A DNA stretch of 64,000 nucleotides. Source: Kalmanozyma brasiliensis GHG001 (lineage: Eukaryota > Basidiomycota > Ustilaginomycetes > Ustilaginales). The position numbers and the translations under genes are program-made. Under the pieces are notes generated by a model that saw only the letters and a list, made by a program, of their open reading frames with translations, was not told where the DNA came from and made no database searches. Below are positions 20,678-25,802 of this stretch, in pieces (the stretch's first letter is position 1; every line of letters starts with the position of its first letter). The stretch spans positions 62,001 to 126,000 of the forward strand of contig NW_015961988.1 of NCBI RefSeq assembly GCF_000497045.1, given 5' to 3'.

Positions 20678-21836
20678 ATGTACGCCTCTGCTGTCCGAAG
20701 GTCCGCCAATTTCACCTTGGCCAATGGTGCCCAGATCCCCAAGCTCGGGTTCGGCACCTGGAAGATGACCAAGGAGCAGGCTACCCCTGCTGTCGCTCAC
20801 GCTATCAAGACGGGCTACCGCCACATCGACTGCGCTTGGGCTTACCGAAACGAAGACGCCGTCGCCGCCGGTATCAAGAAGTCCGGTGTGCCTCGTGAGC
20901 AGTTGTGGATCACCAGCAAGCTTTGGAACAGCTTCCACGACCCAGAGCACGTTGAAAAGGTACGTAGCCTTTACATGGAAGCACTCGCCCTTTAGACTGT
21001 CTTACTGACCCCGACCTCGTCTTCCCGTATTGATCGCAAAACAGGCATTGGACGCGACCCTCAAGGACCTTGGCACCGACTACCTCGACTTGTACCTCAT
21101 GCACTGGCCCGTCGCTTTCCTCAACTCAAAAGGCTCCATGATTCCCTCCATTCGCAGCACCGGTGGTCACCCCGTCGAGAGCACCGACCTTTCGCGTGAT
21201 TTCATGGCCACCTACCGCGTCATGGAGGAGATGGTCAAGAAGGGCAAGGTTCGCAACATTGGCGTCAGCAACTTCAACATTCGCCGCACTGGCGAGGTCG
21301 TCGACGAGTCCAGCATCAAGCCCGTCGTCAACCAGGTCGAGGTCAACCTCGGCGTCCACAACGACGAGCTGCGCAACTACGCTCACGCTCACGGCGTCAC
21401 CCTCCAGGCCTACTCGCCCTTTGGTTCCAGCCAGAACGTGGCCAAGTACCTCGAGGACGATGTCGTCGTCGACGTTGCGCAGAGGAACAACATCACTCCC
21501 GCTCAGGTCTTGCTCGCTTGGACTCTCGGTAGGGACATCATTCCTATCACCAAGAGTGTCACCCCCGAGCGCATCGAAGAGAACTTTGCCACGCTCAACG
21601 TCAACTTGCCCGAGGACGAGATCAAGCACCTCTCCAACGAGGCCCTCAGCCGACCCATCGAGCGCACTGTCGACCCTACAGAGGGCTGGGCTGTCACGGA
21701 CGAAATCTTCGAGGACGGCGTTGATCAGACGCGCGAGATGGAGCTCAAGGGCGGTGCCTACGTGCCCCCTCCCGCTCACGAATCGCCCGCCGAGCACCGT
21801 CTCGAGCCCCGCAACGACCCCGAGACCCCCTCGCGC
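20678..21836 (+). CDS. Aldo-keto reductase, frame without its own stop codon
   Basis: NADPH-dependent reduction of aldehydes or ketones (AKR superfamily, fungal glycerol-dehydrogenase/GCY1-like). Exon 1 is 20678-20959 and the intron 20960-21044 (GTACGT...ACAG). The tetrad is complete: Asp51, Tyr56, Lys81 (ITSKLW) and His114 (YLMHWP). The cofactor segment IPITKSVTPERIEEN is present. The fold should end near residue 330 (after RTVDPTEGW...REMELKGG), the usual AKR length. The odd point is that no stop follows: the frame continues through a Pro/Glu-rich linker into the mitochondrial presequence at 21837 and on to a stop at 22880 (705 aa if translated whole, unspliced beyond 21045), or 781 aa if joined to E1-beta. 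The end given here is the boundary to the next module, not a stop. No strong donor that could supply a private 3' exon was seen between 21600 and 21836. Confidence 0.8.
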
Positions 21837-22880
21837 ATGTTCCACACCGCCGCCCACCCCCTCGCTTCGTCGTCCGGCAGCAGCCGTCGTCCCACCGCCG
21901 TCCAGTTGCAGAAGTCCTTCTTCCGAAGCTTCTCCTCGTCCAGCCGATCCGCCGCTGTCGCCGAGGTCGTCCCACCTAGCGCATCCGAAGCTCCCGCCGT
22001 CAGCGAGAGCTCGCTCCTGCGCACCACTTCCCAATCCGCCCTCGCCACCCCCGGTCTCCGCTTCGTCGACGGAGAACAGAGCATCCAGAGAGAAACACAG
22101 AAGATGAACATGTACACGGTGCGTAGAATGTCCACATCGACCCAGACTCGAGCTTCCGTTTCCGCCGCCACTTCCCCCATCTCGGTCACCGCCTCGCCCG
22201 CGCTTGCTGCCCGCACCAAGGCATCATCCTCGTCGACATCGTCGCGCAAATACCCGGCGAAGAAGTCGTTCCTGTACGAAAAGTACCTTCGCCTGCTGAC
22301 GGACAGCCAGATGGTGGTGGTGCTGCAGCACAACAACCTCTCTGTCGCCGAGCTGGCCAAGGTGCGTTCGGACATTGCGGCTCTCAAGCTGCCCGAAGGT
22401 CAGACGGCCAAGGCGTCGCTGACGGTGGTGCGCGCGGGTCTGATGAAGGCGGTGACGCGCCAGTTGGCTTCGAACCCCGCGATGGAAGCGTTGCAACCGG
22501 CACTCAGCGGTCCGATCGCCTTGCTGACGTGCGAAACTCTTACACCTGCGTATCTCAGTGCGCTGTTTAACGTCGTGGACCGCGCATTGGGGCATGTGCC
22601 TCCGAGAGCACCGGCGATGGGCGCCAAGTTCCCCGAGACGGCCGTGGCCAACCCGAGACTGGTGCCCCTCGCAGCGGTGTTGGAGGGCAACAGGCTGTTG
22701 CAAGTGCCCCAGTCCAGGGATGTGGGCAGGATCGGCAGCCTGGACACCTTGCGCGCCCAGATTGTCGGTCTGCTGAGCAGCCCTGGTCAGCAGCTGGCTG
22801 GTGTGCTCAGCCAGGCCAGCGGTCAGCAGCTCGCCATGACGCTCGAGGGCAGGAAGAGGGACCTGGAGGCCAAGCAGTGA
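21837..22880 (+). CDS. MRPL10: Mitochondrial ribosomal protein uL10m inside the BCKDHB intron
   Basis: Large-subunit mitoribosomal protein of the L10 (uL10) family, the base of the stalk. The uL10m domain covers about 22254-22880: the start [17 protein letters not shown], the [13 protein letters not shown] segment and a C-terminal [19 protein letters not shown] helix, as in fungal uL10m proteins. The frame is open from 21837 (347 aa), so retention of the intron starting at 22119 attaches uL10m to the same presequence as E1-beta. An alternative start is the ATG at 22128 (A at -3, 250 aa), whose first 45 residues carry no acidic residue and could serve as a targeting signal themselves. The stop at 22880 is followed by AT-rich sequence that may hold the poly(A) signal. 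Which start is used cannot be told from sequence. Confidence 0.85.
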   Translation: MFHTAAHPLASSSGSSRRPTAVQLQKSFFRSFSSSSRSAAVAEVVPPSASEAPAVSESSLLRTTSQSALATPGLRFVDGEQSIQRETQKMNMYTVRRMSTSTQTRASVSAATSPISVTASPALAARTKASSSSTSSRKYPAKKSFLYEKYLRLLTDSQMVVVLQHNNLSVAELAKVRSDIAALKLPEGQTAKASLTVVRAGLMKAVTRQLASNPAMEALQPALSGPIALLTCETLTPAYLSALFNVVDRALGHVPPRAPAMGAKFPETAVANPRLVPLAAVLEGNRLLQVPQSRDVGRIGSLDTLRAQIVGLLSSPGQQLAGVLSQASGQQLAMTLEGRKRDLEAKQ

Positions 22881-24126
22881 TTCCCGCATTGCTTCGGGCC
22901 ATATCCCCCTTTCGCTTTCCGTTCGTCTACACTATTCCCCCTAAGCCAAGACTTGTATAGATTCTCTCCTAGTTCACGTCCATTATAATTAGTTTTCGAG
23001 CATCATCGTGCTGTTCGTTCCTTGTTGTACGTGATGAGCATACTGACCCCCAGCCCACGCTCCTCCAACCCTTCTCTGCCTTCTCCTTTTCTCCTCCACC
23101 GCCTCCCCATTCTCCCCCCCCCTTTAACGCACGCAGGCGATCCGTGACGCCCAAGCGCACGTCCTCACCTCGGATCCATCCGCGCTCGTCTTTGGCGAAG
23201 ACGTAGCCTTCGGCGGCGTCTTCCGCTCCACCATGAACCTCTCCACCACCTTTGGCCGGGATCGCGTCTTCAACACGCCGCTCACGGAGCAGGGCATCAT
23301 CGGCTTTGCCATCGGCCTGGCAGACATGGGCCACACGGCCATCGCCGAGATCCAGTTTGGCGACTACATCTTCCCGGCGTTCGACCAGCTCGTCAACGAA
23401 GCGGCAAAGTACAACTACCGCTCGGGGGGCCAGTTCAACGTGGGCAAGCTGACGGTGCGAGCTCCGTGCATGGGTGTGGGCCACGGTGCGCTGTATCACA
23501 GTCAGAGCGTGGAGCAGTTCTTCATGGGTGTGCCTGGATTGAAGGTCGTTGTTCCACGCAGTCCGATTCAGGCCAAAGGGTTGCTCAGGGCCAGTGTGGC
23601 GGACGACAATCCGGTGGTGTTCCTCGAGCCCAAGATTCTCTACAGGGCAAGCGTCGAGCAGGTCCCCATGGATGATTTCACCCTGCCCCTGTCTCAAGCG
23701 GAGATCGTGCGACCGGGTAACGACCTAACGCTCATCTCATGGGGCGCACCTCTCTACGCATGCGAAGAAGCCCTTGCGCTGCTCGCCAACCCACCTGCCT
23801 CCATCGCCCAGCACTTCCCTTCGAGCATCCGAGGCGCCAACGTGGAACTCATCGACCTCCGTACCATTCTGCCATGGGACCGCGAAACCGTGATCAAATC
23901 CGTCGCCAAAACCGGTCGATGCGTCATCGTCCACGAAGCCCCCGTGACCGCCGGCGTCGGCGCCGAAATCGCCGCCGAAGTCCAGAAGAACTGCTTCTTG
24001 AACCTTGAAGCTCCCATCACCCGCGTCGGTGGGTGGGACACACCCTTCCCGCACGTCGGCGAGCTCTTTTACAAACCCGAGGCCGTTAGGATCGCCGATG
24101 CCCTGGTCAAGTGTCTGACCTTTTAG
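21837..24126 (+). CDS. BCKDHB: Branched-chain 2-oxoacid dehydrogenase E1 beta subunit (mitochondrial)
   Basis: E1-beta of the BCKDH complex, which decarboxylates the 2-oxo acids of Val, Leu and Ile in the mitochondrial matrix using thiamine diphosphate. Exons 21837-22118 and 23137-24126 give 423 aa. The intron 22119-23136 (GTGCGT...CGCAG, phase 0) is needed because the conserved start of the domain is split: KMNMYT in exon 1, AIRDAQAHV...[12 protein letters not shown] in exon 2. Further family motifs: [15 protein letters not shown] with the TPP-contacting Glu, [27 protein letters not shown] segment, [51 protein letters not shown] and DTPFPH. The presequence ([19 protein letters not shown]..., [12 protein letters not shown]) is rich in Arg and Ser. 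The intron contains uL10m. The upstream frame is open into the aldo-keto reductase. Confidence 0.93.
22881..23136 (+). promoter_or_regulatory. Intron part with probable poly(A) region and long pyrimidine tract
   Basis: After the uL10m stop there is an AT-rich patch (cattataattagttttcg, about 22980-22997), a plausible polyadenylation region for a uL10m mRNA. TACTGAC, a possible branch point, lies at 23041-23047. A nearly pure C/T tract follows at about 23055-23127 and ends with the acceptor CGCAG at 23136. This looks like a poly(A) site competing with a strong 3' splice site. Confidence 0.5.
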
Positions 24127-24258: not shown

Positions 24259-25353
24259 TCACAGATTGAACACCCTTACCGTGCCCACCTCCTTCTGTTC
24301 GTCGCCCGCATATGCCAGCACGTACTTGCTCGGATGCCAAGCCAGCGTATTGATCATGCTCCCCTGTCCCAACATCACCTTGTGCACCGTATCCCCTTCG
24401 CCATCGCGTCCCACACTCGGACACGTTGCATTGATCGAAATAAACGGGTCCTCTCCTCCAGCAGCAAGGAGCTCACCATCGAAGCTGAACCCAATCGCTC
24501 TTGCTGGAAACGCCAGACTGGTAATCATCTTGACGCTGAACCATTCCCTACAATCCCAAAGACTCACCATGGAGTCGCTCGAGGCGGTGGCGACGAAGCG
24601 CGAAAGGGGTTCGTGTTGGATGCAAAACACGTTTGCTGTATGGGCTGAATGCGAGTGGACCCTCTTATAGTCGGATGTTTGATGGAGGTGGACGCTTCCA
24701 CTCCCACTCGAAAGGAGCAGTAGTGAACCGTCGGGGGAGAAGGAAAGCTCATTGATCTCCTCTCCACTCGCCCTGATCGTCATCTCGGTCCAGCTCCCAT
24801 CCCCTGCAGGTGGGGTGGTGCGTCTCGAGCAAACCGTATGAACAACCTTGTTCGAGGAGATATCGATGATCGACACGGTATCCGTCTTATCCCCCACGGC
24901 TACGACCTCGCCGTTCGGGTGGTAGGCAATGTTGATATTTGCCCCTGGCGTAACCACCGTCGCTGTCTCGCCGCGCGTTCTTGCATCCCACAACCGCACG
25001 GACCGATCTCCACTCGCACTAGCGAGCACCTCCGGGTGGGTAGGATGCCAACAGAGCTGGTCGACCGACTCAGTGTGTCCCCGGAGCTCGGTCGATGCGC
25101 GATGGTCGATAGAGCGTTCAGGCACCCACACGCGGATCAACCGGTCCGCACCACAGGTGGCCAGCTTGCGCCCGTCAATGGACCAATTGACGCACCGCAC
25201 GGACGAGCGATGCCCAGAGCGAAGATCCTTCGTTTTGAGACTGGGGAAGGTCGGCAGGTGGATCTGGCGGTCGGAGAACGAGGCGGCTGTGGAGGGTGGA
25301 AGGCCATTTTTGGACGACGACGCGGTCGAAGAAGGGTATAGCGAGAGCGACAT
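24259..25353 (-). CDS. THOC3: THO complex subunit 3 (Tex1/THOC3), WD40 protein
   Basis: 364 aa, single exon. Nuclear WD40 subunit of the THO/TREX complex, which couples transcription with mRNP assembly and export. Seven blades can be followed from residue 45: GHRSSVRCVNWSIDGRKLAT; GHTESVDQLCWHP...SVRLWDAR; IAYHPNGEVVAVGDKTDTVSI; INELSFSPDGSLLLLSS; HTANVFCIQHEPLSRFVATA; AIGFSFDGELLAAGGED; and INTLAWHPSKYVLAYAGDE up to the end. The length fits THOC3 (about 350 aa). The start at 25353 is chosen because the upstream in-frame extension to 25794 overlaps the promoter of the divergent NDK gene and is not conserved-looking. It converges with BCKDHB over 132 nt. Confidence 0.92.
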   Translation of the reverse strand: MSLSLYPSSTASSSKNGLPPSTAASFSDRQIHLPTFPSLKTKDLRSGHRSSVRCVNWSIDGRKLATCGADRLIRVWVPERSIDHRASTELRGHTESVDQLCWHPTHPEVLASASGDRSVRLWDARTRGETATVVTPGANINIAYHPNGEVVAVGDKTDTVSIIDISSNKVVHTVCSRRTTPPAGDGSWTEMTIRASGEEINELSFSPDGSLLLLSSGSGSVHLHQTSDYKRVHSHSAHTANVFCIQHEPLSRFVATASSDSMVSLWDCREWFSVKMITSLAFPARAIGFSFDGELLAAGGEDPFISINATCPSVGRDGEGDTVHKVMLGQGSMINTLAWHPSKYVLAYAGDEQKEVGTVRVFNL

Positions 25354-25802
25354 CGTGAACGGCGCACGACGGGTATCCGCGTGGGTACAGAGGGATGCGA
25401 CCGGGCTGGATGTGGACGAGCGAGGAGGTACGGATGAGGAGAAGCAAGGGTCCTTAAAGCCTCCACTCGCCGCTGTCACGTGTAAGATCTTCTTCCCGTG
25501 CGAGAAACCACGCAAAAACGTGGCCAGAAGAACGTCAAAGATGCACTGTTCAGCTCGAAACAACACTTTTTTTTTCTCTTTAGGTGTGGGTGGGCCTGTC
25601 TGTGCGGCCTTCTTCTGCGCTGCTTCTGCCCGAAGAACCGGCGTGTGGCACCACACATACAAGCATGCGGCGTTGGAGTGGCACCGAACTGGCGCTGGTC
25701 GTGCTGTTGATTGCTTCGGTGTTGTTCCACTTTCGCAGCTCCACTTTCCTCCCACCACCACCACCATCACCTGTTGATTCACCACAAACGACATCTTTCA
25801 CC
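25354..25802. promoter_or_regulatory. Bidirectional promoter region THOC3 / NDK
   Basis: 449 nt between the two divergent ATGs. It contains a T-rich run (about 25566-25582) and CCACCA-type simple repeats just before the NDK start. No separate gene seen. Confidence 0.5.

Follow-up and report, generated by a model that had tools for sequence, protein, structure and literature searches.

The 64,000-nt stretch of Kalmanozyma brasiliensis GHG001 analysed here (contig NW_015961988.1, positions 62,001 to 126,000; the window) raises the question of how one locus may serve two unrelated mitochondrial proteins, the ribosomal protein uL10m and BCKDH E1-beta, a subunit of branched-chain catabolism. A sequence-only reading had placed uL10m inside an E1-beta intron, and this was borne out, with a frame that continues across the donor to the stop codon ending at 22880. 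The proposed donor GTGCGT at 22119, the acceptor CAG ending at 23136, the intron length of 1018 nt and phase 0 were all verified in the sequence. The same reading had both proteins share a stand-alone presequence exon starting at ATG 21837. This part was not supported, as the frame runs upstream, free of stops, into a conserved aldo-keto reductase (AKR). We favour, with a probability of roughly 60%, one gene with one frame, in which AKR and a presequence-like stretch would be followed either by uL10m, through retention, or by E1-beta, through splicing, at a single predicted donor. The features of the locus, in window positions, are:

20678..20959, plus strand: exon 1, AKR N-terminus with a short basic leader, MYASAVRRSANF (translation)
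20960..21044, plus strand: 85-nt intron, GTACGT...CAG, with an in-frame stop inside; its removal would be required for every product
21045..21836, plus strand: exon 2, part one, the remaining AKR and its C-terminal tail, with LEPRN at 21801-21815 (PF00248, tail motif)
21837..22118, plus strand: exon 2, part two, shared presequence-like region and N-terminus of mature E1-beta (block pattern, BCKDHB alignment)
21924-21935, plus strand: cleavage-like RSFS inside the shared presequence-like region (motif)
22089-22118, plus strand: E1-beta block (mature N-terminus) directly 5' of the donor (block pattern)
22119..23136, plus strand: predicted E1-beta intron, 1018 nt, donor GTGCGT, acceptor CAG, branch-like TTAAC at 23124
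22119..22259, plus strand: uL10m-specific leader within the intron, with cleavage-like RRMS at 22122-22133 (motif; modelled with low confidence)
22260..22880, plus strand: uL10m domain and stop codon (22878-22880), internal to the intron (PF00466; N. crassa uL10m as best match)
22881..23136, plus strand: intron tail (256 nt) 3' of the uL10m stop, with stops in all three frames
23137..24126, plus strand: terminal exon, the remaining BCKDH E1-beta (PF02779, PF02780)

Once the 85-nt intron is removed, the frame that opens at ATG 20678 meets no stop before that of uL10m at 22880; proteins of relatives (P0129, P0138 and P0141) read straight across the position of this intron. The exon at 21045-22118 is open throughout and begins inside the AKR gene, for which the upstream reading frame gave a PF00248 match (E 2.1e-34). 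AKR had been missed by the sequence-only reading, whose presequence exon is the 3' part of this exon. An in-frame TAA at 23125-23127 lies just 5' of the acceptor, and the E1-beta exon is therefore unreachable by straight read-through. The open frame in K. brasiliensis alone is unremarkable, as 11.5% of simulated sequences stayed open over 183 codons; its conservation is remarkable. The window being insufficient by itself, we rejected a chance open frame on conservation, a judgement that makes no correction for shared descent. The sequence itself shows the open frame, the fit of E1-beta across the junction, the lack of second copies and the recurrence of this arrangement in proteins of relatives.

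Across the predicted splice junction, human BCKDHB (1dtw_B, E 1.2e-127) aligns without a gap, starting 11 residues before the junction, at residue 84 of the spliced protein; the human counterpart at the junction is TQKMNLFQSVTSA. The spliced product scored 429 bits to BCKDHB and 161 bits to PDH E1-beta (1ni4_B), and the transketolase pyrimidine-binding and C-terminal domains (PF02779, PF02780) were both found in E1-beta. By these matches, the predicted spliced C-terminal product belongs to BCKDH E1-beta and is nearer BCKDHB than PDH E1-beta. The pattern of the N-terminal E1-beta block is matched by 98 of 120 listed E1-beta proteins, and outgroup E1-beta proteins read YQ, not YT, inside it. FGED is present in 113 of the 120, the exceptions being six proteins of 297-298 residues and the full-length P0357. 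The acceptor before AIRDAQ is also used in the public gene models P0121, P0135 and P0141. We considered a separate E1-beta first exon in the intron tail and rejected it: the tail holds one ATG (23034), its sole GTRNG-type donor lies upstream of that ATG, and an in-frame stop precedes the acceptor.

The domain encoded in the intron is uL10m, as judged by its L10 domain and predicted uL10 fold. Ribosomal_L10 (PF00466) was found in the intron frame above the cut-off (E 6.8e-06), and Neurospora crassa uL10m was both the best PDB sequence match (E 2.5e-13) and the best fold match to a predicted structure built from 43 aligned sequences. Block means of the model's confidence score (pLDDT) were 91-96 for residues 141-250 and 73-89 beyond, and 42-63 for residues 1-130, before the domain, where two short helices were predicted. 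Searching the genome (17.27 Mb, 26 contigs) for further uL10m and E1-beta places, we found no second credible uL10m, the next place having E 0.246 and stops; within the reach of this search, uL10m thus has a single copy. The next E1-beta-like place was 37% identical and on another contig. In the intron tail (22881-23136), GC is equal at the three codon positions and stops occur in all three frames, and this tail is a possible place of polyadenylation for a uL10m mRNA.

We compared the 705-residue AKR-uL10m query with related proteins, taking the best 120 of 300 matches together with P0004 from the uL10m search. The E1-beta block was found behind AKR in 44 of these 121 proteins, including that of K. 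brasiliensis itself (P0121), and P0137 and P0161, which fall outside the block pattern by one letter, have the same arrangement and add to the 44; most other proteins in the set match the AKR part only. The uL10m C-terminal pattern occurs in 40 of the 121, and 38 of these carry the block. A search for the arrangement in other smuts and basidiomycetes, as the sequence-only reading had proposed, thus found it in Ustilaginomycetes and Exobasidiomycetes, to which all named hosts checked taxonomically belong. The hosts listed are Kalmanozyma, Pseudozyma hubeiensis, Ustilago (trichophora, loliicola, tritici, nuda and hordei), Melanopsichium, Moesziomyces, Testicularia, Pseudozyma flocculosa, Violaceomyces, Thecaphora, Meira, Jaminaea, Ceraceosorus, Parajaminaea and Sympodiomycopsis. 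In mushrooms and in Malassezia (Malasseziomycetes), uL10m stands alone. Among the 120 proteins of the uL10m listing, 90 have the C-terminal signature and P0004 alone has the block, long fusions being invisible to that search.

The AKR is conserved as an enzyme and as the front of a longer chain. Active-site motifs of AKRs comprise Asp/Tyr, Lys and His, and they are present in 26 of 27 complete N-termini, that of P0121 included. Of 16 other reductases examined at the C-terminus, 14 end at or very near the position where the K. brasiliensis AKR continues, and the remaining two have different short tails. The tail motif LEPRN occurs in 42 of the 44 block-bearing proteins and is absent from all other reductase hits in the range P0170-P0240, and the frame-0 codon score of the AKR tail (0.63) was the highest among the five stretches scored. 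In all 28 complete N-termini examined, the AKR leader has 12-17 residues, of which 2-4 are basic and none acidic. Mushroom-type AKR relatives (P0217, P0222-P0226 and others) have long N-terminal extensions with a hydrophobic stretch, seen by eye, unlike this short basic leader. A PDB sequence search with AKR at a threshold of 1e-40 gave no match. An AKR stop hidden by an extra intron between 21650 and 21837 was also considered and rejected, the six GT sites there including no GTRNG-type donor.

Conservation changes abruptly at the donor, with a mean identity of 0.62 over the 20 residues before it and 0.25 over the 20 behind. Directly behind the block, 41 of the 44 proteins have V; the others are P0141, already spliced to E1-beta, and the gene models P0151 and P0152. 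The second residue in the 41 is R in 37, G in three and C in one, and conservation is low from the third residue on. V is encoded by GTN, and the codons of R, G and C all have a middle G, so that each pair reads GTNNGN, which the splice donor consensus fits. A protein reason for keeping V and then R, G or C is hard to see, and we attribute their conservation to a 5' splice site that has been kept.

Sites of the mitochondrial processing peptidase follow motifs of the type R-x-[FYL]-[AGST]. This motif occurs in the shared stretch of 40 of the 44 proteins, compared with 11.0 expected from shuffles, while 38 of 41 have the looser R-x(0-1)-[FYLM]-[AGST] in the uL10m leader, immediately after the donor, compared with 11.9 expected; each motif was set against shuffles of its own stretch, and the proteins are related. 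A linker separates AKR from the second domain in their common frame, and before uL10m this linker is of low confidence in the model. The AKR start is the only conserved start codon that we found.

From these observations we infer two mRNAs, a single start, splicing, retention, import and cutting. The spliced mRNA would encode AKR-E1-beta (781 residues) and the unspliced mRNA AKR-uL10m (705 residues), the latter probably polyadenylated within the 256-nt tail of the intron, and both would be translated from the AKR start codon. Import would be guided by the short basic AKR leader, after which the processing peptidase would cut at RxF/Y-type sites in the shared stretch, and the uL10m form a second time immediately after the donor. 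This processing would strip uL10m of the E1-beta block and release AKR. The net output would be AKR in every case, partnered either by a stalk-base protein of the mitoribosome or by a subunit of branched-chain catabolism. The earlier proposal that splicing yields E1-beta and retention yields uL10m thus stands as the likely switch, although the exon they share does not stand alone. The link it drew between mitoribosome supply and branched-chain breakdown is still plausible, provided that AKR is included. In Ustilago maydis, intron retention is the main form of alternative splicing (59% of events), introns have a mean length of 170 nt and 49 well-supported retained introns span 30 to 743 nt (PMC2219887), and by this measure the 1018-nt intron is long for the smut group.

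Several observations weigh against this mechanism. The AKR leader has no more than 12-17 residues, and composition was the sole basis for judging it. Malassezia, of the same subphylum, carries uL10m alone (P0016, P0017). Many of the proteins compared are gene models or open-reading-frame calls, all related by descent, so their counts are not independent; a scan of viral_contigs turned up no DNA from relatives, and their donor was deduced from amino acids and their acceptor from a few gene models. In the Parajaminaea and Sympodiomycopsis pair (P0151 and P0152), the gene models connect the block with positions within uL10m, an outcome unexpected under simple retention unless the models are wrong; either they are, or these two genera use an alternative acceptor. 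The codon score of the uL10m leader is -0.21 in the frame used and 0.30 in frame 2, which tells weakly against the proposed frame; this leader is rich in S, T and A, a composition unlike that of the stretches on which the score was trained. Finally, Met aligns with ATG 21837 in six of the 44 proteins, and of the 40 that show a cleavage-like site, 33 contain at least one Met from the AKR tail up to that site, so that internal starts are possible in some species.

This last point bears on the view taken by the sequence-only reading, that AKR and the presequence are separate and that E1-beta and uL10m, chosen by splicing or retention, have an internal start near 21837. We consider this doubtful. 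Such a start could tentatively be a transcription start of its own, leaky scanning or a non-AUG codon, the last being known in fungi (PMC7214817). ATG 21837 is present here, and eight proteins beyond the six have MHT, with Met one residue later. Against it, seven of the 40 lack any Met from the tail to the cleavage-like site, the window shows neither an AKR stop nor a GTRNG-type donor in 21650-21836, the tail motif recurs in nearly all block-bearing proteins, and the kept frame would be left unexplained. Missing Met residues also oppose an independent nested uL10m gene with its own promoter and a start at ATG 22128, which the sequence-only reading had named as its alternative and for which the shared frame would be incidental. 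A presequence-looking leader rich in S, T, A and R follows this ATG, and the leader codon score disfavours the frame used, both of which suit such a gene. However, ATG 22128 is not conserved, 29 of 41 proteins lack Met in the interval from the donor to the domain, the frame is open in these 29, and the residues at the donor are conserved solely as a splice site demands. We regard a nested gene as improbable.

It is more improbable still that the locus has one output, the frame being kept for uL10m while E1-beta is made from a truncated 297-residue start at 23233 or not at all. Six listed E1-beta proteins of 297-298 residues fit this idea, namely the deposits P0244 (S. reilianum), P0251 (U. tritici) and P0314 (P. 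flocculosa) and the open-reading-frame calls P0242, P0245 and P0246; the start of the 297-residue form corresponds to 23233 here (23233-24126). These short forms lack the N-terminal region, FGED is otherwise almost universal among the listed proteins, and the well-conserved block before the donor would be needless for uL10m. A single giant chain of AKR, uL10m and E1-beta, as in the deposited 1045-residue K. brasiliensis protein P0121, is barely credible. P0121 is 100% identical to our query over all 705 residues and welds the three parts together, with a small predicted intron that takes away the final uL10m residues. P0135 from Moesziomyces (939 residues) also holds all three in one chain, joined differently, inside uL10m. 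The joins are improbable and differ between the two species. Among the block-bearing proteins the E1-beta signature occurs only in P0121, P0135 and P0141, and apart from P0121 and P0135 none has both uL10m and E1-beta.

The splice-switched arrangement that we favour finds a parallel in Thecaphora frezii, whose gene models (listed as P0141 and P0156) show two copies on different contigs. ACQY0O_005798 encodes AKR-presequence-E1-beta (777 residues) and ACQY0O_007525 an AKR remnant-presequence-uL10m (510 residues). The latter lacks most of the AKR core and the active-site motifs and keeps the leader, tail, block and donor residues. Such a pair is expected if a two-product gene was duplicated and then divided, with one product per copy. 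The broader proposal, of a splice-switched polyprotein gene with one promoter and a swapped passenger, older than the split between Ustilaginomycetes and Exobasidiomycetes, tuning organelle translation against branched-chain burning and divided in Thecaphora, stands in our estimate at about even odds.

In U. tritici, AKR-uL10m and the 297-residue E1-beta are filed under the neighbouring locus tags NDA13_004079 and NDA13_004080, and the AKR-uL10m model contains the first exon that is missing from the E1-beta next to it. With the locus split between two models the shared exon goes unseen, perhaps the reason that our literature search, with most subscription journals outside its coverage, found no published description of the locus. 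The annotation of the smut E1-beta deposits without an N-terminus (P0244, P0251 and P0314) would be corrected accordingly. P0173, deposited under the name of the fern Adiantum nelumboides, is an AKR-E1-beta piece of the fungal kind and is probably contamination.

Among the closest known systems is that of maize and rice, in which the mitochondrial ribosomal protein gene rps14 and the enzyme subunit gene sdhB obtain one presequence through alternative splicing (PMC2631504). The likeness drawn by the sequence-only reading holds: here too a gene for a mitochondrial ribosomal protein is joined to one for a mitochondrial enzyme subunit. The ribosomal protein frame sits within the predicted intron of the enzyme gene and continues the frame of the upstream exon, whose presequence-like stretch the two proteins would share. 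Unlike in rps14/sdhB, the shared exon of the smuts neither stands alone for targeting nor has a conserved start codon of its own, and the frame continues into AKR. No third enzyme is known to precede the targeting exon in rps14/sdhB, and rps14 derives from the mitochondrial genome, whereas the smut locus has AKR fused in front, spans two fungal classes and contains a uL10m that stands alone in mushrooms and Malassezia. If our reading is true, the locus would be a fungal equivalent of rps14/sdhB, deeply conserved and extended by a third, fused enzyme, and control would be coupled, each transcript serving the mitoribosome or branched-chain breakdown and never both.

The tandem precursor Arg5,6 of yeast is cut internally by the processing peptidase, and Schizosaccharomyces pombe Rsm22-Cox11 and rice RPS14 are named among composite precursors with internal signals (PMC8847149). 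As cutting of the Arg5,6 type is known, the smut chains would need no new enzyme. Arg5,6 and Rsm22-Cox11 resemble the smut locus in carrying several proteins per chain; their internal presequence-like stretches and processing-peptidase sites have candidate counterparts at the smut locus, drawn from composition and motif enrichment. As described, their second protein is fixed, whereas the C-terminal protein of the smut chain would be exchanged by splicing. We know of no earlier gene in which alternative splicing and a cleavable tandem precursor would come together. Fungal SKI7/HBS1, U. maydis included, is one gene yielding two proteins by alternative splicing and is divided between duplicates in some lineages (PMC3597508); the T. 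frezii pair would be a division of this kind. SKI7 and HBS1 are related proteins from one ancestral gene, in contrast to the unrelated proteins with a shared targeting exon at the smut locus.

Beyond the locus, a long open frame on the minus strand (24259-25794), WD-repeat-like by eye, lies tail to tail with E1-beta, 133 nt from its stop.

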